NCBI GenBank assembly: GCA_037447655.1
Contig: JBBHKE010003208.1
Location: 62,001-126,000 of the forward strand
Direction: 5' to 3'
Source: Zygnema cylindricum
Taxonomy: Eukaryota; Streptophyta; Zygnematophyceae; Zygnematales; Zygnemataceae
Length of the DNA stretch: 64,000 nt
The stretch's first letter is position 1. The number at the start of each line of letters is the position of its first letter. Below the pieces are notes generated by a model. It saw only the letters and a list, made by a program, of their open reading frames with translations. It did no database searches and was not told the origin of the DNA. The position numbers and the translations under genes were made by a program. This document shows, in pieces, positions 15,228 through 57,264 of this stretch.

Positions 15228-18200
15228 TTGTCATTTTTGCAAAAAGACGTGAAAATTAATCGCGGATTGTGTCAAGCTTTCGGAGCTGTTGCTCTAAGTG
15301 AACCGTGGAGGGGGTTCTTCCGAAGGAAGAAAAAGGCACTTGTGGTCACAAAAGTGACAGGAGAAACCGAGGATGAGTCTTACAAGGAGGATGAGGAGCT
15401 TCTTTTTTACGACAGTCTGGAGGAGAAAGAGATCCCTCGGAGACAGAAGTGTGCCCTTGGAGCAATCCGGGAAGCTCCACAGGAAGGATGGATCATCGAC
15501 TCAGGTGCATCGATGCATATGTGTCGTGATAATGAACACTTCACTAAGCTAAGAAAGATCCCTATTGTAGAGATAGAGAATGGGGATGGGAGAGTAATTA
15601 CTATAGATTTAGTGGGGTCATTAGATCTGAAAGTCTTAGTGGAGGGTAAAACTTCTATACTCACATTCTCAAATGTACTCTACATTCCTCGACTGAGTAA
15701 AAATCTTGTCTCTACGTCTGTGTTAAATCACAAAGAGTTTGATACCTTCACTAGAAAGGGTGTCTTTAGAGCTAAGTTTAGGGATGAAGTTTACTTCACA
15801 ACAGATAAGGGTAGCCAAGGAATGTATAGGCTTAACCTGAGTAATGAAAAGATGAATGCTTACTATGTTGGTGTTCCTAAGGTGATGATTAGGCATAAAC
15901 GATTGGGGCATGTGCATTTTGATAGGTTGAGTGAAATGAAAAAGCTTGGGGTAGTAGAAGGCATTCAGTTTGGGGATAATGAAATGATTGATGATTTTAG
16001 TGGCTGTGCTCAAGGTAAGGCTCACAGACTTCCCTTTCCCAAAGCCGCCACATATAGAGGTGAGAAAGTATTAGATCTAGACCACAGAGATATCTGGGGA
16101 CCTGCAAAAGTGCCTTCGGTTAGAGGAAAGAGGTTTATGTTGACAATAACCGATGAGTGGTCTAGATACTCTAGAGTCTACTTCCTAAAAACAAAGTTTG
16201 AAAAAACAACTTACTTCAAAGAATATAAAGTTTGGAGTGAGAAGTTGCATGGAACCCCCATTAAGAGGATAAAGAGTGATAATGGGGGGGAATATACCTC
16301 TAACCTGTTTGAGGAATACTTGAGAGATGAGGGAGTTCAGCACCAGAAAACTATACCATAGAACTCGGAACAAAATGGGGTAGCTGAGAGGTTGAACCGA
16401 ACACTAAGTATCGTGCATGAAGTATGTTGGGCGACAAGAAAATAGGAAAGAGATTTTGAGCCGAGGCCATGAACTCAGCCAACTACATTAAGAATAGAGT
16501 CTTTACCTCAGCTGTAAAGGGAATGACACCTTATGAGAGAAGGGTGGGAAGGAAACCAAATATCTCTCACCTTAAAGTATCCGGTAGCCAAGTTTACAGT
16601 CTTGACACGGATAAGAAAAACTGGAAACTTGATGTTAAGGGAAAACCTCAATACTTTGTAGGATATGATGAGGATGTCAAGGGATATAGAGTCTATGACT
16701 TAGCAAAAAGAGATATCATTCTGGTCAAACACCTAGTTGTCATGGATGAAGGGAAGCCATTTGACCCCTTTAAATATACCAAGAAGATAAGAATCAGATT
16801 TGAGTTTGAAGGTGAAGAGGACTCCGTCTTTCTTGAAACGGACATGAGTGAAAGAAGTATTTGAGATTCAGGCGAGATCCAAGACACTGGAGATCCACCG
16901 GAAACCTCACATATTCCTATGGACTTCGAGGAGACAAAAGAGGAGGAATCCGAACCGACTTCCATGGATTGGGGAGCCGATGAGACAGTAAGGAGAAATC
17001 CAAGACTTCCCTCCATCCCAGCTTCGGAGTTCGAAGGGGGGAGAAGGAGCAACAAACGAATTCAAAAAAAACAGGCCGCTCATAAAGTAACTAAGTTATC
17101 TCACAGAGATGAGCCTCAGTCATACTCGGAGGCGGTAAACAGTCTGGAGAAAGACAGATGGATTAGAGCCTTAAATGATGAGATGGCCTCTATCATGGAA
17201 ATAAATACTTGGGAACTAGCGGACTGTCCTCCGGACAGAAAAACTGATTGGTTGTACATGGGTGTTTAAACTAAAACTGAAACCAGATAATACCATTGAG
17301 AGATATAAGGCTCGTTTGGTGAAAAAAGGGTTCACCCAAAAAGAGGGGATTGACTATGAGGAGACCTTTGCTCTAGTTGTTCCGTTCCCATTAGTAAGGA
17401 TTCTCCTCAATCTAGCAGCAGTGGAAGACATGGAAATACACCAGATGGATATTAAGACTGCCTTTCTTAATGGTGAGTTAAAGGAAGAGATTTTCATGAG
17501 GTATCTAGAGGGATTTGTGGAGGAAGGAGAAGAGAGCAAAGTGTGCAGACTCATAAAGTCCTTATATGGACTTAAGCAGGCTCCTCGACAGTGGAATAAG
17601 AAACTAGATGAGTTTCTCACCGGTCTAGGATATATCCGGATTAGTACTGACCATTCTATCAATATGTTTGAGGATGAGAATGGTGTCATATGTTATTGCA
17701 ATCTATGTGGATGATCTCCTAGTGCTTAGTAAGTCTTTGGAAAATATGAATAGGCTAAAAAAAGATCTTAGAAGCAGATTTGATATGAAGGATTTAGGAG
17801 AGGCAAAATAAATTTTGGGGATCCAAATGAGGAGATAGAGGGGGAAAAGGATTATCAGACTTACTAAGAAAGAAGCAATAGGTAATATGCTTGAGAAATT
17901 CTAGATAGAAAAGACTAATAGTTGTACCACTCCCATGGACTTGAAAAAAGTAGGTAATAGGAGTGTAGAAAAAGGAGTGATGATCTTAGATGATCAGTTG
18001 AGTCTAGAAGGGAGAGAGTTTATCAAATCTATCCCTTATAGACAAATCGTAGTAAGTTTGATCTATTTTATGAACTGTACCAGGCCGGACATAGCGGCAG
18101 CAGTTGGAGTACTCAGTAGGAGTCATAATGATCCTAAGAAGAGAGTCTGAGAGGCAACCAAAAGAGTCATGAGATATCTGGTGGAAACCAAAGAGTTATG

Positions 18201-23379: not shown

Positions 23380-26300
23380 TTATTTTCTAGTGAATCTTTA
23401 ATTTCAGACCACACTTCTCCCTGCAAAAAATAAGCTTAGGGGAAGGCACAAGTTTGGTCATCATATCTGCTACCATCTCACTATCTGGTCGGTACTCTAA
23501 ACTGATTATTTTATTTTCTACTCTCTCTAACAAAGCTGAGTCTAATGGCCATGTGTTTAGCTTTAAACTGATGTTTAGGATTGGCACAAATAGCGATTGC
23601 TGCTTGATTATCACAAAATATTTTCTGCACACCACTCTTAAGATGACCAAGTTCACCAAGTAAAGACTTGACCCACATCAATTCTTTTACAGCAGAGCAA
23701 GAGGCCATATACTCAGCCTCCATGGTGGACTGAGCAATAACCTTTTGCTGTTTGCTACTCCAACTGCAAGCCCCATCACCCACATATAATACATATCCAG
23801 AAGTGCATCTCCTCATCGGAGCATCACCATAACTAGCATCACTCCAAGTAGTGATGTCAGTATTCTCCCCACCCAAATGCAACCATAGATCCCTAGTTCC
23901 CATCAAGTATCTAAGAACTCTTTTAGCTGCCTCCCAATCCCTCTTAGTGGGAGCAATTAGACTTCTACTCAGCACTCCAACAGCTGCAGCTAAATCCGGC
24001 CGGGTACAATTCATAAAATAGATTAGACTTCCCACTACTTGCCTGTAAGGAATAGTCTGCATGAACTTCTGTTCTTCAGGAGATAATTCCTCGTCTAAGA
24101 CTATGACTCCTTCTTCCTCACTCCCCTCACTTCCCTTCTTCAATTCCATTGGAGTTGTACAACTATTAGCTTTATCCATTTGAAATTTTTCAAGCATGTT
24201 CCCTATTGCTTCCTTTTGAGTCAATCTTATAATTTTTCTTTTTCGGTCTCTCTCTACTTGAATTCCCAAAATATATTTTGCTTCCCCCATATCATTCATT
24301 TCAAATCTCCCCTTAAGATCGGTTTTCAGTTTATTAATTTTTTCCATTGATTTACTTAAAACATGTAAATCATCAACATAAATTGCAATAAATATAAAAC
24401 CTTCCTCATCTTCGAAAACATAGATTGAGTGATCTGAGCTGATCCGGATATATCCCAGACCGGTAAGAAACTCATCAAGCTTCTTATTCCACTGTCGAGG
24501 CGCCTGTTTCAAACCATAAAGAGATTTAATCAGCCGGCATACCTTACTCTCCTCTCCTTCTTCCACAAACCCTTCGGGTTGTCGCATGAAGATCTCCTCT
24601 TCCAATTCTCCATGCAAAAAGGTTGTTTTGATGTCCATCTGGTGCACTTCCATGTCTTTCGCTGCTGCCAGGCTGAGAAGTATGCGGACGGAGGGAAATC
24701 TGACCACCGGGGCAAAGGTTTCCTCGTAGTCAATTCCCTCCTTTTGTGTAAATCCCTTTGCCACTAGTCGGGCCTTGTAGCGCTCGATTGTGTTATCTTG
24801 GTTCAGTTTTAATTTAAAAACCCACTTACAACCGATTGGTTTTCGGTTAGGTGGACAATCCACCAGCTCCCAAGTATCGGCTGCCATAATTGAGGCCATC
24901 TCTTCATTGATGGCTGTCTTCCACCGATTTCTTTCTGGACAAGTCATCGCCTCTCCATAAGTTTGAGGTTCATCTTGATGAGATAGTTTTGTTACCTTGT
25001 TATTATTTTATTTTTCTTGTAGTCTTTTACTACTTCTCCTTCCCCCTTCAAAATCTGAGGCCGGAATAGATGGTTCTCGTGGATTCTTTCGAACAAACTT
25101 GGTTTCTCCCCTATCCGTTGATTCCGAATCAATTTCCACCACGTCTTCCGCTTCGGGTAGAGTTGTCACTGGAGTTTCAACAGCCGAGTCCTTTTCAGTC
25201 TGATTTGTACCTGCAAGAATGTCATCGTCTCTAAAACTTGGATAGTTAGGAAGCTCAAAGTCATCAGAATTTTCTGACTCAAATCTGATTTTTACTGACT
25301 TTGTATATTTGAAGGGATCCACAGACTTTCTTTCATCCATAACTACTAGATGCTTTACTAAGATTATATCTTCTCTTTTTAGATCATAATTTCTATATCC
25401 TTTAACATCCTCATCATATCCTAATAAGTATCCCGGTTTTCCTTTAGGATCTAGCTTCCAATTAGACCGATCTGTATCTAGACTGAATACTTGACTGCCG
25501 AAAACCTTTAAGTGAGATATGTCTGGTTTCCGGCCTGTCCATCTCTCATAAGGTGTTTGATCTTTTATAGCTGAAGTAAGAAATCTATTTTTGAGGTAAT
25601 TAGCACAGTTCATTGCTTTTGCCCAAAACCTTTTTCCTATCTTCTTATGCGACAACATACTTCTAGCACTATCACTTAGTGTTCTATTTAACCTTTCAGC
25701 TACCCCATTCTGTTCCGGATTTTCTGGAACTGTCTTTTGGTGTTGAACCCCATCTTCCCTCAAAAAATCCTCAAACTGGTTAGAAGTATACTCTCCACCA
25801 TTGTCACTCCAAACTCTCTTGATTGGAGTTTTATGGAGTTTTTCGCTCCATGCTTTATATTGTCTAAAACAATCCTCAACTTTTGACTTGTTTTTCAAAA
25901 AATACACCCGGGAATACCGAGACCAATCATCAGTTATAGTCATCATAAATCTCTTCCCCCCCGGTGAGGGCACTCTAGACGGTCCCCAAATATCTGTGTG
26001 TACTAAATCTAGAAGTTTTTCTACCTTGTAGTTGGCTGTTTTAGGAAAGGGTAATCTGTGTGCTTTACCTTGAGCACACCCACTACAATCACTTATAACA
26101 TCACTCTCACTGAATTGAATCCCTTCCACCACTCCCATTTTTTTCATCTCTCTTAACTTATCTAGATTCACATGCCCAAAGCCTCTTATGCCACATCATA
26201 ATATCATGAACACCAGCATAATAAAGTTTCTTCGTTTCATTACTTAAGATCAGTCTAATAATCCCATGGCTACCTTTCTCAGCAATGAAATAGACATCCT

Positions 26301-39620: not shown

Positions 39621-39625
39621 GTTAT

Positions 39626-41344
39626 CCGGGTTGAGTTTCAATTTGAATACACACTTACACCAGATTGGCTTCCTATCAGGGGGACAGTCCACCAATTCCC
39701 ACCTAATGGCTGCCATATCGAAGCCATCTCCTCATTATTGGTTGTCTTCCACTGGTTCCTCTCAGGACATTTCATCGCCTCACCATAAGTCTGGTGTTCA
39801 TCGGGATGAGAAAATTTGGTTACCTTGTTGTTAACTTATTTCTTTTGCAGTCTTTTGTTGCTTCTCCTTTCGCCCTCAAACTTTGATGTCGGAATGGATA
39901 GCTCTCGTGGATTCTTTCGAATAGTTTCGACTTCTCCCCTATCTCTGGATTCTGGGTCTATTTCCACAACGTCTTCCGTTTCGGTTGGAGTTGGCAATAA
40001 AGGTTCCACGGCTGAATCCTCCTCGGTTTGATTTGTACCTGCAAGATCATCGTCTTCTCGAAAACGTGGATAATTAGGAAGCTCAAAGTAATCAGAATTT
40101 TCTGACTCAAATCTGATTTTGACTGTGTTTGTATGCTTAAAGGGATCTATAGATTTCCTTTCATCCATGACAACGAGATGCTTTACTAGGATTATATCTT
40201 CTCTCTTGAGAATATAGACTCTATATCCATTTACATCTTTATCATATCCTAGCAAATATCTTGGTTTTCCTTTCAGATCAAACTTCCAATTTGACCGATT
40301 TGTGTCTAGACTGAACATTTGACCACCGAAAACCTTTAACTGTGAAACATCCGGTTTTCGGCCGGTTCATCTCTCATAAGGAGTTTGGTCATTTACTATT
40401 GAAGTAAGAACTTTATCCTTGAGATAATTTGCACAGTTCATAGCTTCACCCCAAAATCTCTTTCTTATCTTCTTATGTGAGAGCATTCTCCTGGCACTAT
40501 CACTTAGTGTTCTATTTAACCTCTCGGCTACACCATTCTACTCCAGATTTTCAGAAACTGTCTTTTAGTGTTGCACTCCATCTTCTCTTACAAAATCCTC
40601 AAACTGATTGGAGGTATACTCTCCCCCATTATCACTCCTTACTCTCTTAATACAGGTTTCATGGAGTTTTTCACTTTATGCCTTATATTCCTAATAAACC
40701 TATTGGGCCTCTGATTTATTTTTCAAAAAATATACTCTTGAGTATCGAGACCAATCGTCAATGATTGTTATCATAAACGTTTTACCACCGGGTGAGGGCA
40801 CTCTGGCTGGTCCCCAAATATCAGTATGTACCAAGTCTAACACTTTTTCTCCTTTATAAGTGGCTTCCTTTGGGAAGGGAAACCTGTGCGCCTTACCTTG
40901 AGCACAACCACTACAATCACTTAGGTTTTCTCTTTCTCCAAACTTAATTACTTCCATTATTCCCATCTTTTTCATTTTTTTCAACTTATCTAAATTCACA
41001 TGTCCAAGCCTCTTATGCCACAACATGATATCATGAACGCCAGTAGAGTAACGTTTCTTCTTTTCATTGCTTAAAATCAGCCTAAATATCCCTTGGCTAC
41101 CTTTTTCAGCAATGAAATAAACTTCCTCCTCAAAGCTAGCAGTAAAGGTTCCCTTCCTAGTGCTAGTCTCAAAACCCTTATCATCTAACACAGGCGTTGA
41201 GATGAGGTTTTTGTTTAACTCTGGAATAAACAACATATCAAGGAATTTCACTATGGATGTCTTTCCCTCCACAAAGACTTTCAGATCTACCGATCCTACC
41301 ATAGTTGTAGTGACTACCCTCCCATCCCCATACTTTATCTCTAC
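39626..41344 (-). pseudogene. Copia B2 Pol, protease end to RT N-terminus
   Basis: Reads upward from 41344: VEIKYGDGRVVTTTMVGSVD, GAG-pre-integrase MLWHKRLGHVNLDKLKKM, CSGCAQGKAHRFPFP, HTDIWGPARVPSPGGK, damaged integrase core (stops at 40560-40700), FSLDTNRSNWKFDLKGKPRY, the ELPNYPRFREDD linker, and at 39640-39780 the RT N-terminal segment on the minus strand. Gypsy M interrupts it at 41344, H at 39626. Confidence 0.87.
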
Positions 41345-42550
41345 TGTCATGCCGCATCACGTCGGTGCACCTAATTATACTTAATAGCATAGAAAGGGTC
41401 ATTCAAAAAAGACTCCACACTAACTTAAACGTGGGTATGTTGCGGTGGCGACAAGATCGTACACCTTTCGGTCCGACACCGTAAAATCCACGGGCCGTTT
41501 AGATTTTCCCCGCAAATTTGTCATTCGACAGAAATCTCGCAAACCGACGTGAGATGTCGTCCGAGATTTTCGCGGACCAACTTTCTCTGCAAGCCGGAAT
41601 TTCTCGCAAACCGACTAAATTTGCTCTCCGGGAGTTTTTCACGAACCGACTTACTTCGTCGGCCGGAATTCCCGCGACCAATTTATGTCGATGTACGCAC
41701 GGCCGCGAACCGAAACATGAACTCGAGGTGGGGTCAGCGCCATCGTGGATTTGAAACGTGAATGGACGGCCACCAATGATGCAGGCGAATGGACACTCCG
41801 GATGCAGACTGCATGCAGGTTCATTTTAAGTCATGGACCCTTGGAGGTCGCACGCATTCACATGTAGCGTAGGAAGGGTTTTTATCCGCAAGTTGTGATT
41901 CTGTAACGTAAGGCATACGTTTTTGGTCGCCTATTGGCCATAATCCAAACTAGGAGCAAACAGCTACAAAGAACGCATGTATTCGTAGTAAGGTAGACTC
42001 TCACCTGTAGACTTTGTACTTAGCGAATTTTAGGTGAATTCAGTGCTCACAATTTCAAGAGCACAGGAATTCTCTTTTTGGAAGATTTAACCTAAACTTT
42101 TATTATTTTTTTGTGAAATTGTCAAGATAGGTTTAGTGACTATTTTTCTGGTCATTGAGCATTCTGCCTAGCTCGCTCTCAACTTTCTTTTTAATCTGCC
42201 TTGCAATTTAATCTACGCGGCTCACGCCGAGGCCTAACCGGTTTCCCTTCACTTCTTCTCTCTTCATGTCAAGTAGATAACGGCTCAGCTTTCTATCTCA
42301 GGCTGTTGGTGAACCATGGATTGTGATTGGACAGTTTTGGGTTTGCTTGTGTGGTTCCTTGGTGATAGTGGATTAGGGTTGACTTTTTTTATTTGTTTTG
42401 TTTCTGGTTAAATCTGGTTATCTCAGATTTGCCCGTGGTTTTCTACATTTTCAGTTTATGTGTTGTGATATTTAGGTTCGATCTTTATTTATTGAACTCC
42501 TGTTAATAATATAAACAGAGCAAGGAGCCTAATGGCTATCTATTGGCTTA
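41345..42550 (+). repeat. 5' LTR of gypsy M
   Basis: Matches the 3' LTR over about 1206 bp, including the GCGGCTCACGCCGAGGCC block and the run of Gly/Arg-type GC-rich sequence near 41460-41760. Beyond TTGGCTTA the copies diverge, so the exact LTR end and the PBS are uncertain. Confidence 0.8.
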
Positions 42551-43012
42551 ATATTCCTTTGTTCTTGAAATTGTCTCTTTTTCTTCTATTTTCTTCAATT
42601 TGAAATTGTCTCTTTTTCTTCTATTTTTTGCAATATCAAATTGTCTCTTTTTCTTTTATTTTCTGCAATTTGAAATTGTCTCTCTTTCTTCTATTTTCTG
42701 CATTTTAACATTTTCAGTTTTGCTCCATTTTTTGCAATTTGAAATTGTCAATTTTTCTAAGTTTCTTTATTCCTTGTGTCAATCGGTTCTTCTATCTAGT
42801 TTTTGTCAATTTGTTTGTATGTTTAGATTTCTGCAATGTTTTATTTTCATTTCATTTGTTGTCTAGTTTGTTTTTGAGTTGTTGAATCTAAGATTGCTGA
42901 ACTGTCCGGTATCGTTTTCTCTTCTTTCTTCCTACCGGATTAACTCACTAAAAAAACCTAGCAAAATTAAAAAAAAACCTTGAGATATATATATATATAT
43001 ATATAGATATAT
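42551..43012 (+). repeat. Pyrimidine-rich tandem repeat and TA microsatellite in the M leader
   Basis: Four to five copies of a ~40-bp unit (GAAATTGTCTCTTTTTCTTC TATTTTCTGCAATTT-like, split here for length) at 42566-42745, then TATATATATATATATATA at about 42985-43003. Confidence 0.75.
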
Positions 43013-43662: not shown

Positions 43663-44004
43663 ATGCCCACTGAATGGAATAATCTTGACCACTCATACGG
43701 ATCTACACGTAGTGGTGGAACTTTCCGTTCATCAAATTTTGATCAATCGAATTTATCAAATTCGGTTCCTTTGACGTTAAGTCCTTTAATTGAATCTAGA
43801 GCGTCCTCTACTCGTTCAGATTTAACCACAGTCTCATCTTTGTCATCTATTCTTTCCACGCTATCTGTGGAAGAGGTTGATAACGAAAGGGAACCCGATT
43901 CAGATTTTCCTTTCTTTTTGGTCTCCGTTAGCACCGATTCATGCTTGGAATGCGACCAACTCGTATCTTTTGATGGCCTCCACATCGTAGGGCACTCGTG
44001 GTAA
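43663..44004 (+). CDS. Serine/acidic-rich ORF upstream of gypsy M gag
   Basis: 113 codons, Ser/Thr-rich then acidic (VEEVDNEREPDSDFPFF), no recognised fold. It is in the same frame as the gag piece at 44203, with a TAA and frameshifted sequence between. It may be the N-terminal part of Gag or a leader ORF. Confidence 0.4.
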   Translation: MPTEWNNLDHSYGSTRSGGTFRSSNFDQSNLSNSVPLTLSPLIESRASSTRSDLTTVSSLSSILSTLSVEEVDNEREPDSDFPFFLVSVSTDSCLECDQLVSFDGLHIVGHSW

Positions 44005-44060
44005 ACTCCAATTCTGCTTTTCCGGAATGAAGGATATTGTGAGTTAATCTGATTTTCGAA

Positions 44061-45137
44061 TGCTATTCGACACTGAAATGCAAGATCTACCTTTCCGTTA
44101 TCAAGATAGATTTGACATGGTGTCGCTTTCTCCCTTCTCGGGCGTTACCTTCGCGGGTCCGCCCTTACCTTATATTCCCGCAAGTATGATGGCATACTTC
44201 CGATGATTGAATATTCTCCACAGTTTGCTTGTAAGCCTGAGGTTATAGGTCAAGCAGAAATTCCGTATAAAGTTGCTATTCCCGAGGTCTTAGATGCGCT
44301 TGGCAATGTTCTTAACCCAGTTGAGGCGGAGTTTCCCCACCAATATGCCATTGCAGCCCGAGCCGCCGTCCCGGCACGACCCGGGATGACTATTCCGTTA
44401 CGAGACCCTCTCACCATAATGTTTAGTTTGTTACAAGAGGAGTATCGCATGCAAAATCCTGACCAAGTTAAGGAATTAATGAATTTTGAGCGTAAATCGG
44501 GCGAAAATGCCCGCGCTTTACGAGCCCGCATGGAGACCTTGCGGGAAGCGTTACCCGATTTGATATATTAGATGTGGAAGTTGTCCAGAAGTTTGTTGGA
44601 CATTTTCCTTTCCAGTCAAAGAAATTTATTTATAGCCATCTTACCCAAATATACTGTCTCAAATTTACGTTCGACCAAGCAGCTCAATACGCCATAGAAT
44701 ACAAGATGACGAATTGTTGGTGGGAGACCCACGATCGACCTAAAGCCCCTCAAACAGAACCTAACCCTTTCAATTCTCCAAATCCTCGTAACTTGGGGCC
44801 AAATAATCGGCCACTAAGGGTCCCAGCCATGGGGGCCCCACCAAATCAACCATCCAATCAGATATGTTTTCGATGTTGCAAGACCGGGCATGATGCTCAG
44901 ATGTGCCTGGATAAATCTGCGACGTGTACAGACTGCAAGCAGACCGGCCACTTTGTGTATCGTTGTCACATCAAAAACCCTGAATTTTCATATCAAAATC
45001 AGATTCGAAATGGTGGCATATCGGCTAGATCTGCCAAAGCAGTCCATCCAGTTAAAGAGCCAGAAAAAAACTCTCTACCTAAAGTGTCTCGGAGAAAAAA
45101 GAAAGAGAGGAAATGCAAACTCAAATGGTTACTATGA
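44061..45137 (+). pseudogene. Gypsy M gag with two CCHC zinc knuckles
   Basis: Likely start near ATG 44061-44075 (MQDLPFRYQDRFDMVSL), frameshift near 44200, then 44203-44570 with the retrotransposon Gag-like helix region (QVKELMNFERKSGENARAL), a second frameshift at 44572, then 44574-45137 with CFRCCKTGHDAQMC and CTDCKQTGHFVYRC, two consecutive CCHC knuckles at about 44865-44970, and a Lys-rich tail. Gag packages the element RNA in the cytoplasm. Three reading frames are needed, so the copy is broken. Confidence 0.8.
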
Positions 45138-45367: not shown

Positions 45368-46330
45368 TTGCCCGAAACAACTTCCACCATCACGGCTGAA
45401 GCACTCACTATTCTTGACCGCTCTATTCAGGACAACCATTGGGTTAAGGAAAGATTATGTATTTTGTCTACTATGATTTCCAATTCACCCAACCTAAAAA
45501 CTACGGTCACATCCATCCCATTTGCAGTATTACAGGCTTTACAAATGAACCATAATCTTGACGCTCTTAGGCCTATCTCTACCGACGAGCGTATTTCACT
45601 TGACCCACACATCAATTTTCTTGATAATGGGAAGGGTGCATTTTTAGTCAATGGTGTCATACCGTCATTACCACTTATGGACACCAGTGCAAAACAAGTT
45701 ATTTTGAGGTCATCTTTTGCACTGAAACTAGGTTTGACAGTTGATAAATTTTAGTCCACTTCCATACGTTTACTCACCTCAGCGAGAACAACGAAACCAG
45801 TTTTGGGCATTACGAAAGATCCACTTTGTTTTAGGTTTCAAAATGGTACAGAATCTGATTTTGCGGAAGTTCGTGCTCACGTATTGGTCACCAAATGTAG
45901 TGATTACGAGTGTTTAGTGGGGCGAGATGTGATTTTCAGAGAAGGAGGCGGCGTTGATATGTTCGATCAGACTCTTTCCTACCGTCCTACCAATTATCCG
46001 GAAAAGAAAATCTATCTCCCTCGAATTTCAGCACGCCAACCCATACCCATTATGGCTCATGCAGCCCAATCTGTCCCTGCTTATTCCGAAAATTTGGTGG
46101 GATTTGAAATTTTTCATTCTCTTTCCGCAGAGGAAATTCTGCCTGACAGTCCTTTTTTGCCTGAACTTTTCGATAATCCAGGATTTATTATTGATTCTCG
46201 CGAGTTTGATCACATCTACAAACACACACTTCAAATTCCTTTATCGCGAGTTCCACCTCTTCCTCTTATTTCAGTAGATCCTTCCGGTTTTCTTCCCATT
46301 AATTGGAAACCAATTCAGGTCAAACATCAT
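45368..46330 (+). pseudogene. Gypsy M protease and linker region
   Basis: Reads in one frame with the downstream methyltransferase, apart from a TAG at 45752-45754 (CAG by one transition). Protease-like strand FLVNGVIPSLPLMDTSAKQ, where DTS is the aspartic-protease signature (45670-45710), and LVGRDVIF about 75 residues on (45915-45940), matching the ILG-D element of retropepsins. A Pro-rich linker follows. Confidence 0.65.
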
Positions 46331-47467
46331 CAAGATGGTCTAGTCATTTTAGACTTATTCGCAAGCATAGGTACCTCTCTACTCTCATGCCTTCGCAACG
46401 GATTACTTATCAAGCGCTACTACTCAATTGACACTGACCATTTAGCTCGAAAAGCCCAAACACATCACTGTAATCTTTTACATGGACAGTATCCACATCT
46501 TTTCCATAAATCTGCCTTTGCTCACATACATACAGCCTTACCTCAAGATATTCGTTTGATAGGCAACCAACACCTTCTCGATGTGGAACCAATCGATCTT
46601 ATTTTTGTTGGTTGGGAGTGTCAAGAAATGTCATGAGCAGGCAAAGGTCTCGGCTTAGTTGACCCTCGCACTAAATTATTATTTGAATTACTTCGTATCA
46701 TGCATTTTCTGCAATCTTTCGATCGACCATTGGGATATATTTTGGAAAACGTGGCAACCTATAACGATCCTCGACCTACAGTGTTAGCTGATTACAAACG
46801 GATAGAAGCATTAAGTGGTCCTCCTCTTATTATTGATGTCGCTCGCTACGGGTCCTTAGCTCATCGGGTCCAATCTAAATGGACCAACTTGATTGATATT
46901 GGACACCTTAGAGAAGGAAATGTTTTTGTCAAAACCCCTTTTACAAATATTCAAACTGCACTTCTTCCTTTTCACAAAGTCCAAACATGTCTGCAGCCTG
47001 AACACCCGCCGAATTACAACATTAAAATCTCAGGCCAACCACTGAAAGTTCTCCCCACTCTAGTGTCTTATCCACACTCTCATGCTTTCTCTGGTGATGG
47101 GCCCGGCCTGCTCAAAAATATTCATACAGGCGGCCTAGATGAACTTAAAACCACAAAACAGGAACACCTTATGCATTTCCTTCCCAACAATACGGCTGCC
47201 CATGGTCTCACAAAACGACAACGTTGCATCCTTTTAGGTCGTGTCATGGACCCTCAATCTCTCTCATTTGTCTTAGCCCTCGGATTTGCAGCAGGTCGTT
47301 ACGCACAAACACATCCGTATCACCCACGTGGGGGGGGGGACGCATCACCAATTTCTAAACACATACCTACACGATCGACTGTCACCCTTAGAGGGACACC
47401 TTCTCAATTTTTCCTCTTCCCATCCTTTATAAAACCTTCTTCTGATGTCACAATTACGATTTTTTGA
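46331..47467 (+). pseudogene. DNA cytosine-C5 methyltransferase domain inside gypsy M Pol
   Basis: Transfers methyl from S-adenosylmethionine to cytosine. Motif I LDLFASIGTSLLSCLRNG (46348-46400) with an acidic SIDTD (motif II) after it. Motif IV FVGWECQEMS: catalytic Cys at 46619-46621, though the usual Pro before it is Glu. An in-frame TGA (46634-46636) sits where Trp (TGG) would continue to AGKGLGLVDPRTKLLFELL. Motif VI LENV (Glu at 46745). Motif VIII-like HRVQSKWTNL (about 46862-46892). Motif X-like RCILLGRVMDPQSLSFVLALG (47222-47285). About 320 codons, one frame, one stop. It lies between protease and RT, so it was made as part of the polyprotein. The spacing and GW-CQ-S--G signature suggest a standalone catalytic domain. 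Closest subfamily not determinable by eye. Confidence 0.88.
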
Positions 47468-48500
47468 ACCCTAGCCACATATCACGGTCCATTCCGGCAT
47501 ATAGTGCTGCCCAATCTGCTCCCTCTAGTCATATGTCAACACCTCCTCACTGGACTGCAGTCTTTCCTACTCGCAACAGGCACCATTGGACAAACTGCTT
47601 ACAGGAAACACCATTATTTTACTCATTAGGTCAGTCACTTATCGCGGATGAACAACTAGCATTTGCACAAGCCATGGAAGCAATGGCGATTAAAGGTTCG
47701 GAAACTCCTAAATGGAAATTTGGCTCTAATCTCTCTCAATCTGAACATGATCTACTGAACAAAGTGATTCTCCGGAATATCGACGCTTTTGCTTTCTCTA
47801 TGAATGATTTTGGTCGCCATACCACCTATAAAATGTCTATAGATCTGGAAGACGATCGTCCCATTTTTAAGCTGAAACACCGCTTACCTGAAACGGAATG
47901 GGAATTAGTGGACCAACGTTATGTTTAATTGGAGGAAGCTAGCCTCATTTATTGGTCGGATTCTAGTTTTGCAGCACCCATTGTCATTCCCTATAAAAAA
48001 CATGCCGAAGGAAACTTTTCCGATCGCCGGATGTGCGGCGATTACCGTGAACTCAATGCTAGAACGATACAAGATCGACATCCAATGCCATTGGCCGAAG
48101 AAATATTTGATCATGTAGGAGGCGCTAAATATTTCAGTATTCTGGATTTACGACAAGGCTTTAACCAGATTGAAATAGACGAGAAGGATAGGCATAAAAC
48201 CGCCTTTTGGGGTAATGATGGTCGTTAGGAGTGGTCTGTCATGCCTTTTGGACTTAAGAACGCCCCCGCAGTTTTTCAAAAAGTAATGGATTTTGTTTTA
48301 GGTGGTTGCAAGTTTGCACGATGTTATATTGATGATTTGATTATCGCCTCAGCCACAATTGAAGATCACGCAGCTCATATCGAATGGGTCCTAAGTGAAC
48401 TGAAAAATGTCGGATTAAAATGTCATCCACCTAAATATACTTTCGGGTCCGAGGGTGTGCCTTACCTTGACATTTCATTTCCTTTGAGGGAATCACACCA
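47468..48500 (+). pseudogene. Gypsy M reverse transcriptase
   Basis: Preceded by a frame change at 47464. KMSIDLEDDRPIFKLKHRLP, then after a TAA at 47926-47928 VIPYKKHAEGNFSDRRMCGD, YRELNARTIQDRHPMPLAEE, FSILDLRQGFNQIEID, a TAG at 48226-48228 (CAG by transition), MPFGLKNAPAVFQKVMD and the active site YIDD (48325-48336). A one-base deletion near 48468 shifts VPYLGHFISFEG. Clear Ty3/gypsy RT. Confidence 0.9.
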
Positions 48501-49298
48501 CTAGAAGCAAAAACCGAGGCTATTAGCAAGATGCCAACTCTCGTTCATCTCACCAGTCTTCGAGCCTTCCTAGGATTAGCTAATTATTATCGCAGATTTT
48601 GTCCCTAGTTTCAGCACTGTCGCTTCACCATTGAAACGATCTATTCAAAAAAGAGGTCATTTTCGTATGGGGACCTGATCAGATTTTGGCTTTTCATAAG
48701 TTGAAAGATGCCCTCTCTAGTGCTCTCATCCTCCGACCTCCTAATCACAAATTACCTTTCTGCTTACAAACAGAATTTGGAAAGCCTAGCATTGCGGCCA
48801 TCTTAACTCCAACGTGAACTAACAGGAGAAGAATACGTGGTCCTTTACGCAAGCATGAGTAATAATCGTGCGGAGTCAAATTACAGTAGTTATGGATGAG
48901 AATGTTTGGCAGCAGTTTGGGGTATTGTACACTTTCGTCACTACCTTTACGAAAAATTGTTTACCCTTCTAACCGACCATCAACCTTTACATTGGCTGAT
49001 GACGAACGATAAACTGTCAGGAAAATTAGCGCGATGGGCATTAATTTTACAAGAATGTGATGTGGAAATATTTCACCGTCTTGGATTACTTAGCCTGAAT
49101 GCAGACGACATTTCCCGAAATCCTTTGCCAAGGACCACTGACAATGGAGTCCGGCAGGATTTCGATGACGACTTAGCTTCTATGTCAGCACGGTTTTATA
49201 TCACACCTTCTTTCGCTTCGATGCGCGACTCCCGTTCTACCCCAGATCCATGGCAAGACGGAGCACTAATACTTTTCCTCTCCTTACAAACCTTCTGA
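48501..49298 (+). pseudogene. Gypsy M RT connection and RNase H
   Basis: ITPLEAKTEAISKMP and LRAFLGLANYYRRFCP (48496-48607), then VWGPDQILAFHKLKDAL (about 48668-48720), CLQTEFGKPSIAAIL (RNase H first Asp replaced by Glu), SNNRAESNYSSYG-stop-ECLAAVW (TGA at 48898-48900, TGG by transition), LLTDHQPLHWLM and SLNADDISRNPL. At least three frameshifts. Confidence 0.85.
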
Positions 49299-49399
49299 CT
49301 AGCTACTACATCCGAGGAGGAGGAAAGAGTAAAGAAAAGAGCTAAAAATTATCTTTGGTTAGGTGGATCGCTAGTTTGATTGTTAGCGGACAGTAGTCA

Positions 49400-50263
49400 C
49401 ATGCACGTGCCTCGCCTGACTAAACGCCTCTCGCTGATTGAACAAATTAACACAGAGTTGGGTCATTATGGGACCAAGCGCACCTTAAGCTTGTTGTAGG
49501 CATGCTATTGGTGGTCAGGGATGCAATCTGATGTCCCAGCGGTATTGCACAAGTGTGCAATATGTGATTGTCTACGTACCTCTTTCAGCAACCGGCAGAC
49601 TACCCTCCCACCACTACCCATCAAAGGGTTATTTTACCGTTGGTCGTGCGATTTCGCAGGTCCCTTTCCCATATCATGGAGGGGGAAACAATATATAATA
49701 ATCATGATTGAAAATTTTAGCAAATGGGTTGAAGTAGTGGCGTTACCACACAAAACTGCAAAGCTCACCACCGCCGCTTTTAAGGAACATGTCCTCATGA
49801 GATACGGCGCGCCAGCCGAAGTCCTCACAGATCAAAGGACTAAATTCCACGGAGAATTCCAAGAAATGCTAGATGACACTCTTATAGACCATCGTCAAAC
49901 AAGCCGCGATCATCCACGAGCTGATAGATTGGCAGAACTTGCAGTTCAGACCTTCAAGCGGGCATTACGCAAGCATTGCTTAGAGAAACATATAACAGTC
50001 TGGGACGAGTCACTTGGCTATATTGCCATAGGGTATCGAATGTCCGTACAGGAGAGTCTTGCTAATTTCAGTCCATACTATATCTTATTTGGGTGTCAAC
50101 CCTTGTTGGATAGGAATATCCAAAAAGCTGCAAGCTTTCCGCTTCCCTTACTATCTGACGGGGTTTTTTTTGAAGAACTTACACACAGGGCGTTGTTTTT
50201 TTCCCAAGAGATGCCCATGGCTTTTGATAAACTGCAGATCGCCTAGCACAGAGATACTTTGCG
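49400..50263 (+). pseudogene. Gypsy M integrase, N-terminal and catalytic domains
   Basis: HHCC zinc finger HYGTKRTLSLL ... CAICDCLR (49463-49575; TAG at 49497-49499). Catalytic core with Asp in CDFAGPFP (49646), Asp in LTDQRTKFHGEF (49825) and Glu in RADRLAELAVQTFKRAL (49935). The frame ends at the copia A insertion (50264-50268 CTTCG) and continues at 55359 as LRHDTQRELPAQAQA, confirmed by the duplication. Confidence 0.9.
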
Positions 50264-50361
50264 CTTCGTGAAACTCTGAGACCTCCATAAGTCCTCAGAG
50301 TGGACAGCTTCCAAGAAGCCTCTAGGATAATCGTGACCCCTTTGTGTTTAAGCAAAAATAA

Positions 50362-50464
50362 CTGCCACCCTGGCAGACAAAAACTCTGACCAACTTCACC
50401 CCTGTGAAGACAAGACTCCCCTGAGTCGATAGCAAAAAGAATCTCTGAATTTGCTCCCCTGAGC
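50362..50464 (-). promoter_or_regulatory. Array of four ARGG-loop hairpins in U5 of copia A
   Basis: Element strand: GCTC-AGGG-GAGC (50453-50464), GACTC-AGGG-GAGTC (50414-50427), CTTCAC-AGGG-GTGAAG (50394-50409) and CTGCC-AGGGT-GGCAG (50362-50376). Confidence 0.85.
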
Positions 50465-51030
50465 AGTAAGTTATGGAGGGTCAAAGTTGACCTTTTGAAC
50501 AGAAGCTCTCTGGGAGAGGGGGTCCTATCTTCTAATTTTTCTAAGTCCTATCTCTCTCACAGACTCTATCTACTGATGTACGGAACCAATCAGAATTGAG
50601 TTATGTACGCAAAAGTACAGCTGCCGGTGTACTTTATGTACGGACATTGTACGACATGGCCAAAATGTCGACACATGTCAAATCCGGATTCGGTGCCATA
50701 ATCTCCGGAGATTCCACAATCCAACGGAATTTCGCCACGCGTCATCCGATGTGGCGAGTGCCAAAAACCGCCGAAATCTTCCTCCGCGATCTCGGCGCTA
50801 ATCCCTGCCGTCCGATTAAATTCGGCTTTAATCGTAGCCGTAATAAATACATGCGCGGTATTTGTTTCATTTACGAAACAAATTCGCGGTACTGATTTGT
50901 GTCCGTACCGTAAGTCGTACATTATATATTACTGGATCTATGTATCCCGTAATTCATTGCAGTTAAATGGTTTTTCGCACGTATACCTATTTAAATAACT
51001 ATCAAACTATATGCTACCTAACAATACCGC

Positions 51031-51118
51031 TAGACTAAACGGCTAAGGCTGCCGGCTAATTCCTGTCTGCCGGCCGGTAGGTACAAGGATCAAATCCTGC
51101 CGCCGGCACATAACTTTT
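51031..51118 (+). promoter_or_regulatory. tRNA-like module antisense in copia A 3' LTR
   Basis: A box TAGACTAAACGGCTAAGGC (51031-51049), B box GGATCAAATCC (51087-51097) and TTTT at 51115-51118. Repeated in the 5' LTR fragment at 55072-55159. Confidence 0.7.
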
Positions 51119-51330
51119 ACTTAAATAAATAAACCCTAATATAAATTTCCCGTAAACCTCAGGATAGCCAAGGTAGCCATGGCTCTAGCTTCCTCTCCAA
51201 TTTCTCAGTGACTGCGACAAGTTTGAGAGTTGGAGAGAGAAGTTAGAGATAGACTGCCTCGACTTCTATATTTCTTTTCAGACCTAGAAAATACTAATAA
51301 AACCATTAGTTTCTACACTCCCCTTATTTT

Positions 51331-54300
51331 CTAGTCAATCTTTAATTTCAGACCACACTTCTCCCTGCAAAAAATTAGCTTAGGGGAAGGCACAGGTTTG
51401 GTCATCATATCTGCTACCATCTCACTATCTGGTCTGTACTCTAAACTGGTTATTTTGTTTTCTACTTTCTCTCTAACAAAGCTGAGTCTGATGTCCATGT
51501 GTTTGGCTTTAAAATGGTGTTTAGAATTGGCAGAAATAGCGATTTCTGCCTGATTATCACAAAATATTTTCTGCACACCACTCTTAAGGTGACCAAGCTC
51601 ACCAAGCAAAGACTTGACCCACATCAATTCTTTTACAGCAGAGCAAGAGGCCATATACTCAGCCTCCATGGTGGACTGAGCAATAACCTTTTGCTGTTTG
51701 CTACTCCAACAGCAAGCCCCATCACCTACATATAATACATATCCAGAAGTACATCTCCTCATCGGAGCATCACCATAACTGGCATCACTCCAAGTAGTGA
51801 TGCCAGTATTCTCCCCACCCAAATGCAACCATAGATCTCTAATTCCTACCAAGTATCTAAGGACTCTCTTAGCTGCCTCCCAATCCTTCTTAGTGGGAGC
51901 ATTTAGACTTCTACTCAGCACTCCTACAGCTGCAGCTAAATCCGGCCGCGTACAATTCATAAAATAGATTAGACTTCCCACTACTTGCCTCTAAGGAATA
52001 GTCTGCATGAACTTCTGTTCATCAGGAGATAATTCCTTGTCTAAGACTATGACTCCTTCTTCCTCACTCCCCTCACTTCCCTTCTTCAATTCCATTGGAG
52101 TTGTACAACTATTAGCTTTATCCATTTGAAATTTTTCAAGCATGTTCCCTATTGCTTCCTTTTGAGTCAATCTTATAATTTTCCTTTTTCGGTCTCTCTC
52201 TACTTGAATTCCCAAAATATATTTTGCTTCCTCCATATCCTTCATTTCAAATCTCCCCTTAAGATCGGTTTTCAGTTTATTAATTTTTTCCATTGATTTA
52301 CTTAAAACAAGCAAATCATCAACATAAATTGCAATAAATATAAAACCTTCTTCATCTTCGAAAACATAGATTGAGTGATCTGAGCTGATCCGAATATATC
52401 CTAGACCGGTAAGAAACTCATCAAGCTTCTTATTCCACTGTCGAGGCGCGTGTTTCAAACCATAAAGAGATTTAATCAGCCGGCATACATTACTCTCCTC
52501 TCCTTCTTCCACAAACCCTTCGGGTCGTCGCATGAAGATCTCCTCTTCCAATTCTCCATGCAAAAAGGTTGTTTTGATGTCCATCTGGTGCACTTCCATG
52601 TCTTCCGCCGCTGCTAAACTGAGAAGTATGCGGACGGAGGGAAATCTGACCACCGGGGCAAAGGTTTCCTCGTAGTCAATTCCTTCCTTTTGTGTAAATC
52701 CCTTTGCCACTAATCTGGCCTTGTAGCGCTCGATTGTGTTATCTGGGTTCAGTTTTAGTTTGAAAACCCACTTACAACCGATTGGTTTTCGGTTAGGTGG
52801 ACAGTCCACCAGCTCCCAAGTATCGGTTGCCATGATTGAAGCCATCTCCTCATTGATGGCTGTCTTCCACCGGTTTCTTTCTGGACAAGTCATCGCCTCT
52901 CCATAAGTTTGAGGTTCATCTTGATGAGATAGTTTAGTTACCTTGTTATTAACCTGTTTTTCTTGCAGTCTTTTGCTACTTCTCCTCCCCCCCTCAAAAT
53001 CTGAGGCCGGAATAGATGGTTCTCGTGGATTCTTTCGAACAAACTCGGCTTCTCCCCTATCCCTTGATTCCGAATCAATTTCCACCACGTCTTCCGCTTC
53101 GAGTAGAGTTGTCACTGGAGTTTCCACAGCCGAGTCCTTTTCGGTCTGATTTGTTCCTGCAAGAATGTCATCGTCTCTAAAACTTGGATAGTTAGGAAGC
53201 TCAAAGTCATCAGAATTTTCTGACTCAAATCTGATTTTTACTGACTTTGTATATTTGAAGGGATCCACAGACTTTCCTTCATCCATAACTACTAGATGCT
53301 TTACTAAGATTATATCTTCTCTTTTTAGATCATAAACTCTATATCCTTTAACATCCTCATCATATCCTAATAAGTATCCCGGTTTTCCTTTATGATTTAG
53401 CTTCCAATTAGACCGATCTGTATCTAGACTGAATACTTGACTGCCGAAAACCTTTAAATGAGATAAGTCTGGTTTCCGGCCTGTCCATCTCTCATAAGGT
53501 GTTTGATCTTTTATAGCTGAAGTAAGAACTCTATTTTTGAGGTAATTAGCACAGTTCATTGCTTCTGCCCAAAACCTTTTTCCTATCTTCTTATCCGACA
53601 ACATACTTCTAGCACTATCACTTAGTGTTCTATTTAACCTTTCAGCTACCCCATTCTGTTCCGGATTTTCTGGAACAGTCTTTTGGTGTTGAACCCCATC
53701 TTCCCTCAAAAAATCCTCAAACTGGTTAGAAGTATACTCTCCACCATTGTCACTCCTTACTCTCTTGATTGGAGTTTCATGGAGTTTTTCGCTCCATGCT
53801 TTATATTGTCTAAAACAATCCTCAACTTTTGACTTGTTTTTCAAAAAATATACTCGGGAATACCGAGACCAATCATCAGTTATAGTCATCATAAATCTCT
53901 TCCCCCCCGGTGAGGGCACTCTAGCCGGTCCCCAAATATCTGTGTGTACTAGATCTAAAAGTTTTTCTCCCTTGTAGGTGGTTGTTTTTGGAAAGGGTAA
54001 TCTGTGTGCTTTACCTTGAGCACACCCACTACAATCACTTATATCATCACTCTCACTGAACTGAATCCCTTCCACCACTCCCATCTTTTTCATCTCTCTT
54101 AACTTATCTAGATTCACATGCCCAAGCCTCTTATGCCACATCATAATATCATGAACACCAGCATAATAAAGTTTCTTCGTTTCATTACTTAAGATCAGCC
54201 TAAACATCCCATGGCTACCTTTCTCAGCAATGAAATAGACATCCTCCTCAAAACTAGCAGTAAAGACTCCTTCCCTAGTGCTAGTGAAAAAACCCTTATC

Positions 54301-54627
54301 ATCTAATACTGATGTAGAGATAAGGTTTTTGTTCAGCTCCGGAATAAACAATACATCGGAGAATGTTAATATGGATGTCTTTCCTTTTACTAACACTTTG
54401 AGGTCTACCGATCCTACAAGAGTAGTGGTGACTATCCTCCCATCCCCGTACTCTATCTCTACGGAGGGAATCTTTCTTATCTTAGTGAACAGGTGTCTAT
54501 CCTTACACATGTGCATTGAGGCACCTGAATCTATAATCCAGCCTGCTTCACCTTTCAATCCACCGTAAGCACATTTCTGCCTTCGTGGAATTTCAACCTC
54601 AGTTTTCGCCTCCAACTCCTCATCCAA
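51331..54627 (-). pseudogene. Copia A Pol: protease, integrase, RT, RNase H, one in-frame stop
   Basis: One frame from 54627 to 51331 (about 1099 codons), broken only by TAG at 51991-51993, where relatives have TAC (Tyr of IPYRQVVGSLIYF). Protease IIDSGASMHMC intact. Then GAG-pre-integrase MMWHKRLGHVNLDKL and CSGCAQGKAHRLPFP. Integrase triad HTDIWGP, SDNGGEYTS and NGVAERLNRT. RT KARLVAKGFTQKEGIDYEETFA, QMDIKTTFLHGEL, LYGLKHAPRQWN and YVDDLLVL. RNase H WSDASYGDAPMRRC, STMEAEYMASC and HHFKAKHMDIRL. All catalytic residues I can check are present. It is the best template in the window for this family, but it lacks gag and its 5' LTR promoter half, so it could not move alone. Confidence 0.93.
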
Positions 54628-54749
54628 AAGGAGCTCATCGTCCTCGTCCTCGGATTCCGCCTCAAGTACCTGTGTGACAAAGGCCTTTTTCTTTCATCTC
54701 GGGGTACCACCGGTCTGCCCCTTCTTTAACCGAAGCTCGGTTAGCTTGA

Positions 54750-55358
54750 AGATTCCACAATCCAACGGAATTTCGCCACGCGTCATCCGATGTGGCGATG
54801 GCCACAAACCGCCGAAATCTTCCTCCGCGATCTCGGCGCTAATCCCGGCCGTCCGATTAAATTCGGCTTTAATCGTAGCCGTAATAAATACATGCGCGGT
54901 ATTTGTTTCATTTACGAAACAAATGCGCGGTACTGATTTTTGTCCGTACCGTAAGTCGTACATTATATATTACTGGATCTATGTATCCCGTAATTCATTT
55001 CAGTTAAATGGTTTATCGCTTGTATACATATGTAAATAATTATCAAACTATATGCTAGGTAACACTACCGCTAGATTAAACGGCTAAGGCTACCGGCTAC
55101 TTCGTGTCTGCCGGCCGGCAGGTACAAGGATCAAATCCTGCCGCCGGCACATACATTTTAATTAAATATATAAACCCTAATATAAAATTCCCGTAAACCT
55201 CAGGATAGCCAAGGTAGCCATGGCTCTAGCTTCCTCTCCAATTTCTCAGTGACTGCGACAAGTTTGAGAGTTGGAGAGAGAAGTTAGAGATAGACTGCCT
55301 CGACTTCTATATTTCTTTTCAGACCTAGAAAATACTAATAAAACCATTAGTTTCTACA
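54750..55358 (-). repeat. Truncated 5' LTR of copia A
   Basis: Corresponds to 50710-51317 of the 3' LTR. Keeps the tRNA-like module and U3 hairpin but lacks the TATA region, the ARGG hairpins and the gag start. Confidence 0.92.
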
Positions 55359-55363
55359 CTTCG

Positions 55364-55793
55364 CCATGACACGCAGCGTGAGCTACCGGCCCAAGCACAA
55401 GCCTTACCGAGTGGAATATTATGTCTACTTACTACGCCTATCATTCGATACCCTGAACACAGATGTTTCACCTTATATCCTCTGAATTATCGAAGTTGAC
55501 ATGAATGGCATGCTAGGACTTCAAAGAGCAGATACGCGAACCTTTCAAGAGCATTCGAAGAACTGTTCTCCATGTTATTTACATGATCCCTCCTATGACA
55601 TGGACCCAATGCGTATGCCTATCACAGAGGCTACAGAATGCACACTTTGCAACCGAGCCGATGGAGAATCGTCAATGCTTCTATGCGACCATTGCAACCA
55701 GGGATTTCACATAGAGTGTTTGGTTCCTCCATTAAAAGCGTTTCCGGACGGTCATTGGGTTTGTCATGGCTGCCGAGAGTTACCAGTCGTATA
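55364..55793 (+). pseudogene. Gypsy M integrase C-terminus and PHD finger
   Basis: The frame from 50263 continues as HDTQRELPAQAQA, then shifts. 55501-55793 is open for 97 codons: MNGMLGLQRADTRTF and HSKNCSPCYL, then a full C4HC3 PHD finger: CTLC (55640), CDHC after LL (55684), FHIEC, and WVCHGC (55758-55775), ending at a TAG. PHD fingers read histone H3 tails, so the expected role is steering integration or chromatin state, as chromodomains do in other gypsy elements. The Trp before the last Cys pair is present and the zinc ligands are complete. Confidence 0.88.
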
Positions 55794-56031
55794 GGCCAGC
55801 TCTTCAGCAGGCTAAAGAGTTGGGGGGGGGAATAAACTGAGCTTTCAGCTTCCTCTCCCACCCTACCTTTATTTTTCTTATAATATGTTTATTTGTTGTT
55901 TGCTACTTGTAAATATTCAATTTCACTTGTTTTCTGAGATGTTCATGACTTTCTCGCTTATTTCATTATTATTTATCTTTCAGCTGGTTGTGTTGCAAGT
56001 TTATCATAATATTTGTCACATGCACGACAGT
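55794..56031 (+). other. Gypsy M 3' untranslated segment with purine tract
   Basis: AAAGAGT-TGGGGGGGGG at 55814-55830 is the best polypurine-tract candidate, but it lies about 200 bp before the 3' LTR start. The last 30 bp (56001-56030) resemble the LTR end, with TTATCATAAT and TTGTCACATGCAC. Confidence 0.6.
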
Positions 56032-57264
56032 TGTCATGCTGCATTATGTCGGGGGACCAAATTATACTTAATTGCATAGAAAGGATCCTTCAAAAACGAC
56101 CCCTCACTAACTTAAACTTAGGTATGTTGCGGTGGAGACAGGATTGTACACCTTTCGGTCCGAGGCCGTGAAACCCGCGGGCAATTTAGATTTTGCCCGC
56201 AAATTTTCAGTCTCCGGAAATCTCGCAAACCGACTTGAGTTTTCATTCGGGATTTTCGCGAACCAACTTTCTCTGCCGGCCGGAATTTCTCTCAAACCGA
56301 CTAAATTTGTTGTCAGCAAGTTTTTCACGAACCGACTTTCTTCGCCGGCCGGAATTCCCGCGCCTAATTTATGTCGATGTACCGACGGCCGCGAACCGAA
56401 ACATGAACTCGAGGTGGGGTCAACGCCATCGTGAATTTGAAACGTGATATCAACGGCCACCAATGATGCAGACGAATGGACGCTCCGGATGCAGACTGCA
56501 CGCAAGTCCATTTTAAGTCGTGGACCCTTGGAGGTCGCACGCATTCACATGTAGCGTATGAAGGGTTTTTATCCGCAAGTTGTAGATTTTGTAACGTAAG
56601 GCATACGATTCTAGTGGTCTATTGGCCAGAATCCAAACTAGGAGCAAACAGCTACAAAGAACGCATGTATTCGTAGTAAGGTATAATCTCACCTGTAGAC
56701 TTTGTACTTAGCAAATTTTAGGTGAATTCTGTGCACACAATTTCAAGAGCACGAGAATTCTTTTTTTGGAATATTTAACCTAAACTTTTATTATTTTCTT
56801 GTGAAATTGTCAAGATAGGTTTAATGACTATTTTTCTGGTCATTGAGCATTCTGCCTAGCTCGCTCTCACCTTTCTTTGTTATCTGCCTTGCAATTTAAT
56901 GAACGCGGCTCACGCCGAGGCCTAACCGGTTTCCCTTCACTTCTTCTCTCTTCATATCAAGTGGATAGCAGCTCAGCTTTCTATCTCAGGCTGTTGGTGA
57001 ACCCTGGATTGTGATTGGACCATTTTGGGTTTGCTTGTATGAATGCTTGGTGATAGTGGATTAGGGTTGAATTTCTTTATTTGTTTTGTTTCTAGCTAAA
57101 TCCGGTCATCTCAGATTTGCTCGTGGTTTTCTACATTTTCAATTTATCTGTTGTGATATTTAGCTTAGATCTTTATTTATTGAACTCATGCAAGGAATAT
57201 AAACTGACCAAAGAGCCTAGTGGCTATCTGTTGGCTTATCATAATCTTTGTCACATGCACTACA
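56032..57264 (+). repeat. 3' LTR of gypsy M
   Basis: 1233 bp, TGTCATGCTGCATTATG ... CACATGCACTACA, then CTAC. Similar to the 5' copy along its length with many substitutions, so an old insertion. The small ORFs on both strands at 56100-56550 are shared by both LTRs and not protein-like. Confidence 0.85.

Follow-up and report, generated by a model that had tools for sequence, protein, structure and literature searches.

The window, i.e. the whole 64,000-nt stretch of the host genome that was analysed (host assembly 353 Mb, 2689 contigs), carries a dead member of a Ty3/gypsy lineage that is old and abundant and has been active recently, and in whose polyprotein a C5-cytosine methyltransferase (DNMT) is a resident domain, a proposal of the preliminary description that the many copies and open frames elsewhere in the genome uphold. 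The element is a Ty3/gypsy LTR retrotransposon, with protease, reverse transcriptase (RT), RNase H and integrase in that order between direct LTRs, as established from the window pieces, the open genomic copy L009 and the LTRs. The explanation preferred here, held as a whole at a probability of about one half, is that the DNMT would be packaged and would pre-methylate the element's cDNA, while a PHD finger would guide integration.

The gypsy element lies on the forward strand between a 5' LTR (41345..42562) and a 3' LTR (56032..57251), which are 89.9% identical across 1222 columns and begin with TGTCATGC, as in L009, the start of the 5' LTR being shared with other copies. A tandem array of 35-base units (42533-42776) overlaps the end of the 5' LTR and continues just past it. 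Comparison by tblastn with pieces of L009 placed, on the same strand, a gag-like region spread over three frames (43973..45017) with two CCHC zinc knuckles (44865-44906 and 44925-44966), an aspartic protease with DTS at about 45680 and one internal stop (45590..45862, also weakly matched by Pfam gag-asp_proteas, E 0.11), a DNMT3-type cytosine methyltransferase region (46235..47317, also identified by motifs, a profile test and shuffles), an RT with YIDD at 48325-48336 and five stops (47824..48633), an RNase H in two frames with one stop (48668..49070, Pfam RT_RNaseH 4.9e-16), and an integrase in two parts, the first at 49395..50268 (Pfam rve 6.6e-12) and the C-terminal part, with one stop, at 55359..55602, both also placed by alignment to gypsy copies. 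A PHD finger follows at 55639..55773 (Pfam PHD, E 6e-11 on 55486-55791), and the 70-residue piece around it (55603-55812) is 73% identical to L009. The integrase is interrupted by a nested copia element on the reverse strand, separate from the gypsy element (50269..55358; Pfam RVT_2 2.1e-80, in a scan of 51991-54693 only), which fills the gap where gypsy homology, by comparison with other gypsy copies, breaks at about 50268 and picks up again at about 55359; the copia repeats at 50709-51319 and 54750-55360 are 95.7% identical. Further copia elements or pieces were observed in the window at 39621-41344 (81% identical to 52738-54462 of the nested element), 23511-26195 and 15222-16361, and no tRNA or Rfam matches were found within the 64 kb.

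Reading of the sequence confirmed that LDLFASIGTS, WECQ, LENV and KWTNL all lie in one frame at 46331-47467, with motif I from about 46340, the Glu codon of WECQ at 46616-46618 and the catalytic Cys codon at 46619-46621. The described order between protease and RT also stands, but an in-frame TGA (46634-46636), unmentioned previously, separates WECQ from LENV; the protease shares this frame upstream, beyond one more stop, and the RT follows downstream in a different frame. The in-frame stop, the other breaks, the PHD finger, the nested copia element and a second clade with an ordinary PCQ motif were all absent from the preliminary description. Stops or frame changes occur in the gag, protease, DNMT, RT, RNase H and integrase regions, the DNMT having one stop and no frame changes across 361 residues. 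Because of the TGA in the DNMT and these other breaks, the window copy is dead.

A chance motif match, by which the DNMT would be an artefact of short conserved strings, draws some support from the window copy taken by itself, which falls under the Pfam DNA_methylase cut-off. Its two halves had no match in Pfam up to E 1, no methyltransferase in NCBIfam, no C5-methyltransferase in the PDB up to E 10 and only a weak methyltransferase match in PHROG (E 0.014), and none of 927 candidates in a protein database matched the second half up to E 1. Against this, when a DNMT3 profile, made from human DNMT3A and 66 further domains, was run on all 751 stop-to-stop open reading frames of at least 40 aa in the window, the two halves took the top two ranks (E 9.7e-6 and 0.0089; next best 0.3). 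They scored 11.1 and 20.8 bits, with best shuffled scores of 4.7 and 3.3 bits, respectively, in controls comprising, for each half, the reversed sequence and 2000 shuffles of its residues, 835 and 824 of which received a score. Given this ranking and these controls, the match is beyond chance, and many genome copies hold the domain at the same place, so that a chance match can be set aside as having a negligible probability. The Pfam check proposed for the domain thus failed on the window halves and succeeded on open genome copies, since L009 (44.4 bits) and L012 (41.2 bits) exceed the 22-bit cut-off, and open copies carry motif I, the motif IV Cys, the motif VI ENV and motif VIII in the order expected of a C5-methyltransferase.

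Two profile and sequence searches combined located at least 237 distinct DNMT places in the host genome, at least one of which is a host gene (L007). In a Pfam DNA_methylase search all 123 scored candidates matched (782 candidates at first look), and the second DNMT half of the window gave 142 matches from 140 scored of 1525 candidates, the window included. The search for intact copies suggested previously was successful in that L009 is a single open frame of 2395 aa in the order zinc knuckle, protease, DNMT, RT, RNase H, integrase and PHD finger, with Pfam matches to DNA_methylase, RVT_1, RNase H, integrase and PHD, the CCHC and protease matches being below cut-off. An RT_RNaseH_2 match was also observed at G000:C961:71386-71685, within an open frame whose reported length is 5743 aa. 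Among 92 related RT places, for at least 48 a DNMT was listed no more than 3 kb upstream, and 20 of the other 44 were read: 11 keep at least 356 of 365 DNMT residues, seven keep 27 to 278, and two (L091 and L092) have none within the 1.25 kb read, deletion and insertion not being distinguished there. Family copies lacking the domain, which would have marked a one-off insertion, are therefore not the rule, as, of 68 RT places listed or looked at, 66 have a DNMT upstream, and this, with the many DNMT places, excludes a one-off capture. LTR pairs from five copies are 100% (931 bp), 99.6%, 99.5%, 96.3% and 80.3% identical, and insertions therefore span from very recent to old.

The family comprises two old, deeply split clades, one with the motif GWPCQGYS (clade P) and one, to which the window copy belongs, with GWECQGMS (clade E). 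The Pro preceding the catalytic Cys, which is near-invariant in C5-cytosine methyltransferases, is present in clade P and absent in clade E. In a motif table with 38 usable sequences out of 41 (L014, L021 and L023, all clade P, had no usable match), Glu occupies this position in all 34 clade-E copies, Pro occurs in four clade-P copies, and the Cys is found in 38 of 38; in the set of RT places, where 12 of 20 cover the motif, the counts are Glu 11, Val 1, Pro 0 and Cys 12. Overall, of the 46 clade-E copies read, 45 have Glu in place of Pro and all keep the Cys, although these counts are not independent because some copies are near-identical. The WECQ variant, flagged as unusual in the preliminary description, is thus a family trait and not the decay of one copy; changes at its first residue were seen in L017 (GSECQ) and L015 (a stop). 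Across both clades, all 38 copies keep the Asn of ENV and 36 keep its Glu, and the motif VIII arginines are retained in 35 and 33 of them.

Selection on the domain was estimated from pairwise comparisons. The dN/dS ratios were 0.18 for the DNMT and 0.07 for the RT in L009-L020, 0.16 and 0.12 in the clade-P pair L010-L013, and 0.29-0.44 for the DNMT in four other close pairs, the window DNMT giving 0.36 against L027 and 0.35 against L017. Comparisons among L009, L012 and L018, for which synonymous sites are saturated and no ratio is estimable, gave dN of 0.13-0.18 for the DNMT and 0.04-0.05 for the RT. The low dN/dS and dN values therefore indicate that the Glu form has been maintained, less tightly than the RT. 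That the DNMT is a passive passenger with no selected function might be argued from the many decayed copies, that of the window included, and from the two RT copies without a DNMT in the stretch read, but the open frames and the low dN where synonymous sites are saturated make this highly improbable. As the Cys, the ENV motif and the motif VIII arginines stay conserved, the clade-E enzyme is predicted to be probably still catalytic, perhaps with an altered rate or substrate. It could instead be a catalytically dead accessory comparable to DNMT3L, kept for nucleic-acid binding or for recruiting a host methyltransferase, which would fit a Pro-to-Glu change in 45 of 46 copies of a domain that remains constrained; a dead enzyme need not retain the Cys in every copy, nor the ENV and arginine residues, and this alternative is considered rather unlikely.

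Profile comparisons with PDB sequences placed both clades nearest to DNMT3A/3B, with E-values for clade E of 1.4e-12 (DNMT3A/3B), 5.6e-4 (HaeIII), 6.4e-4 (HhaI), 3.1e-3 (DNMT2) and 7.5e-3 (DRM2), and for clade P of 3.7e-14 (DNMT3A/3B), 1.4e-6 (HhaI), 1e-4 (4onj), 1.5e-3 (DRM2) and 0.46 (DNMT1). The 4onj chain is named only as a DNA methyltransferase and is presumably tobacco DRM. Membership of the DRM class was rejected, as the motifs run in the order I, IV, VI, VIII, IX-X and are not rearranged, and the DRM2 matches of both clades are weak. The domain might alternatively methylate RNA (the element's RNA or its tRNA primer) and not cDNA, a substrate weighed for the LINE type in the 2018 paper on retrotransposon methyltransferases (PMC5890265) and one that the catalytic oddity of clade E could accommodate; with DNMT3A/3B as the nearest solved relatives and DNMT2 much weaker, this is improbable.

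The phylogeny that had been called for agreed only in part with the profiles. In a DNMT tree of 26 sequences and 272 columns, which included animal DNMT3 but no plant DNMT3 or DRM, clade E and L059 grouped at 100/100 and all carriers at 68.6/81, and the carriers did not nest within animal DNMT3 but were joined, at 99.9/100, by a phage enzyme on a branch of length 2.38. This placement might suggest that the DNMT was acquired from a virus or bacterium and not from a host DNMT3 gene, its function being as in the preferred explanation. Such a source is unlikely, given that the phage branch is very long, that plant DNMT3 and DRM are missing from the tree and that the profiles prefer DNMT3A/3B by many orders of magnitude. 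Moreover, scans of prokaryotic and viral contigs gave no close relative except L059, in which protease and RT flank the DNMT: the prokaryotic scan yielded L059 alone, and of four viral-contig scans two had no relative, one gave 12 loci with best segments of 28-61% identity (the 61% spanning 28 residues) and one gave a single locus at 27% identity. L059 (CADCWO010000201.1; positions 1-3990 of the locus), which is filed in a cyanobacterial MAG, shares the protease-DNMT-RT order and a PCQ motif, its DNMT being about 41-42% identical to both clades, and it is probably a eukaryotic contaminant of that bin from another organism. RT sequences of clade E, clade P and L059 are 51-57% identical to one another and 36-41% identical to two gypsy families without the domain, represented by four loci (L096 and L097 by their RT stretch only); in L093 and L094, one per family, the protease passes into the RT without a DNMT. 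An RT tree (12 sequences, 373 columns) split carriers from DNMT-less gypsies at 100/100 and, differing from the DNMT tree, left L059 unplaced, its support with clade P being 31.8/60. The simplest reading of these few outgroups is that a single DNMT capture would have preceded the split of clade E, clade P and L059.

The integrase-PHD piece of L012 matched 50 PDB sequences at E <= 1e-6, part of them through the integrase, and the PHD relatives included PHF12, KDM5/Lid (3.8e-13), KAT6A/B, BAZ2A/B, DPF3, UHRF1 and AIRE, most of which are readers of the unmodified histone H3 tail; the finger of the family is a probable histone reader. The Pfam PHD cut-off was passed in the window and in clade E, and the three clade-P proteins scanned to their ends remained under its 24 bits (L010 17.5, L013 21.5, L026 18.6). 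No chromodomain was found among the Pfam matches of the copies scanned, and a chromovirus identity was accordingly rejected. Between protease and DNMT, nine of 11 distinct clade-P copies (L001, L002, L003, L008, L010, L013, L014, L026 and L028) have a conserved stop codon in frame (eight TAG, one TAA) with CAA TTC after it; L021 and L023 were unmatched by the search string. L003 and L010, with DNMT domains 56% identical, both keep this stop, a candidate site of programmed readthrough that would meter DNMT and Pol; L009, the open copy of clade E, lacks it.

As regards the methylation background of the host, the separate exon L007 matched PDB chain 4fsx, presumably the maize chromomethylase (CMT) ZMET2, at 3.7e-29 (best other DNMT1-named chain 1.2e-12). 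Because CMT arose in streptophytes (PMC12344493), this exon points to a host that is probably a streptophyte. Among decayed copies of the window subfamily, C-to-T differences were counted at 36 of 410 CG, 55 of 403 CHG and 58 of 1678 CHH sites, with 57 of 3053 A/T transitions. Three other subfamilies showed the same direction more weakly (CG 0.076, 0.104 and 0.044; CHG 0.105, 0.091 and 0.067; CHH 0.061, 0.044 and 0.034), but transversions there are also commoner at CG (0.042, 0.046 and 0.072) than at CHH (0.020, 0.034 and 0.032), so that the window subfamily alone gives a clean signal. All these counts were made within subfamilies, an earlier polarised count having been too small (CG 3/25). 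The pattern suggests only that CG and CHG sites of old copies acquired methylation, as is typical of plants, and host enzymes could account for this bias. CpG observed/expected ratios are not low in the elements (0.84 for the window gypsy, 0.75 for the whole window), and in this comparison elements were not separable from background.

Under the preferred explanation, the DNMT would be produced as part of Pol and packed alongside the cDNA, which it would methylate de novo before or at integration, such that each new copy would land already methylated, and the PHD finger would steer the integrase toward chromatin tolerating such a copy. Self-methylation by the element is plausible in view of the domain order in open frames, the DNMT preceding nearly every RT looked at, the near-identical LTRs of three of the five copies measured and the CG methylation that other retrotransposon DNMTs perform in yeast (PMC5890265). 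It is opposed by the loss of the motif IV Pro in clade E, the weaker constraint on the DNMT than on the RT in several pairs, the CpG ratios, the two of 20 RT copies without a DNMT, the sub-threshold clade-P PHD finger and the inactivity in yeast of the gypsy DNMT of Klebsormidium nitens, which was called inconclusive there (PMC5890265). A bolder version, to which perhaps a minor share of credence is due, would see a complete writer-reader pair in one polyprotein, rebuilding the two halves of host DNMT3 logic, with a DNMT3-type enzyme that would mark new cDNA, a PHD finger reading unmodified H3 that would place the copy in matching chromatin, and Glu-Cys as a new, selected catalytic subclass of C5-methyltransferases. 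Because plants silence transposons by DNA methylation, an element keeping a selected methyltransferase inverts the usual picture. Open copies in both clades make methylation of self-cDNA by such enzymes directly testable, the fixation of Glu for Pro in the catalytic loop is relevant to the C5-methyltransferase mechanism, and the PHD-tipped integrase suggests histone-guided insertion beyond chromodomain elements.

Chromoviruses, in which a gypsy integrase carries a chromodomain, likewise have a chromatin reader at the integrase C-terminus, where the present family has a PHD finger instead. Animal DNMT3A/3B, the nearest solved class, combine their DNMT domain with the ADD, a histone reader resembling a PHD finger, whereas here the reader is a PHD finger lying far from the writer in the polyprotein, and clade E has Glu-Cys. 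The statement in the preliminary description that retrotransposon-encoded DNMTs have precedent was correct (PMC5890265). SymbioDIRS-Dnmt3 and SymbioLINE-Dnmt of Symbiodinium are likewise retrotransposon-encoded cytosine methyltransferases, the SymbioDIRS type methylating CG in yeast, but they belong to DIRS and LINE elements and not to gypsy (PMC5890265). A gypsy DNMT with a PHD finger was not found in the open-licence PMC literature, an absence in print that is weakly supported, and neither the fixed Pro-to-Glu change nor the conserved clade-P stop was met in the open-licence literature searched, WECQ itself not being a search target; the main text of PMC5890265 uses neither the word PHD nor the word proline. 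A DNMT-carrying gypsy element is already known, namely KnitGypsy-Dnmt3 of K. nitens, whose host carries CG, CHG and CHH methylation (de Mendoza et al. 2018, PMC5890265). The repeats of that element have been called DIRS-like, whereas those here are plain direct LTRs, and its key residues are reported as conserved, in contrast to the Glu at the motif IV Pro in clade E (PMC5890265). Compared by description and not by sequence, the present family is nevertheless of the KnitGypsy-Dnmt3 type, in that both are LTR gypsy elements encoding a DNMT3-type domain within the Pol frame, and both are intronless, multi-copy and under purifying selection (PMC5890265).
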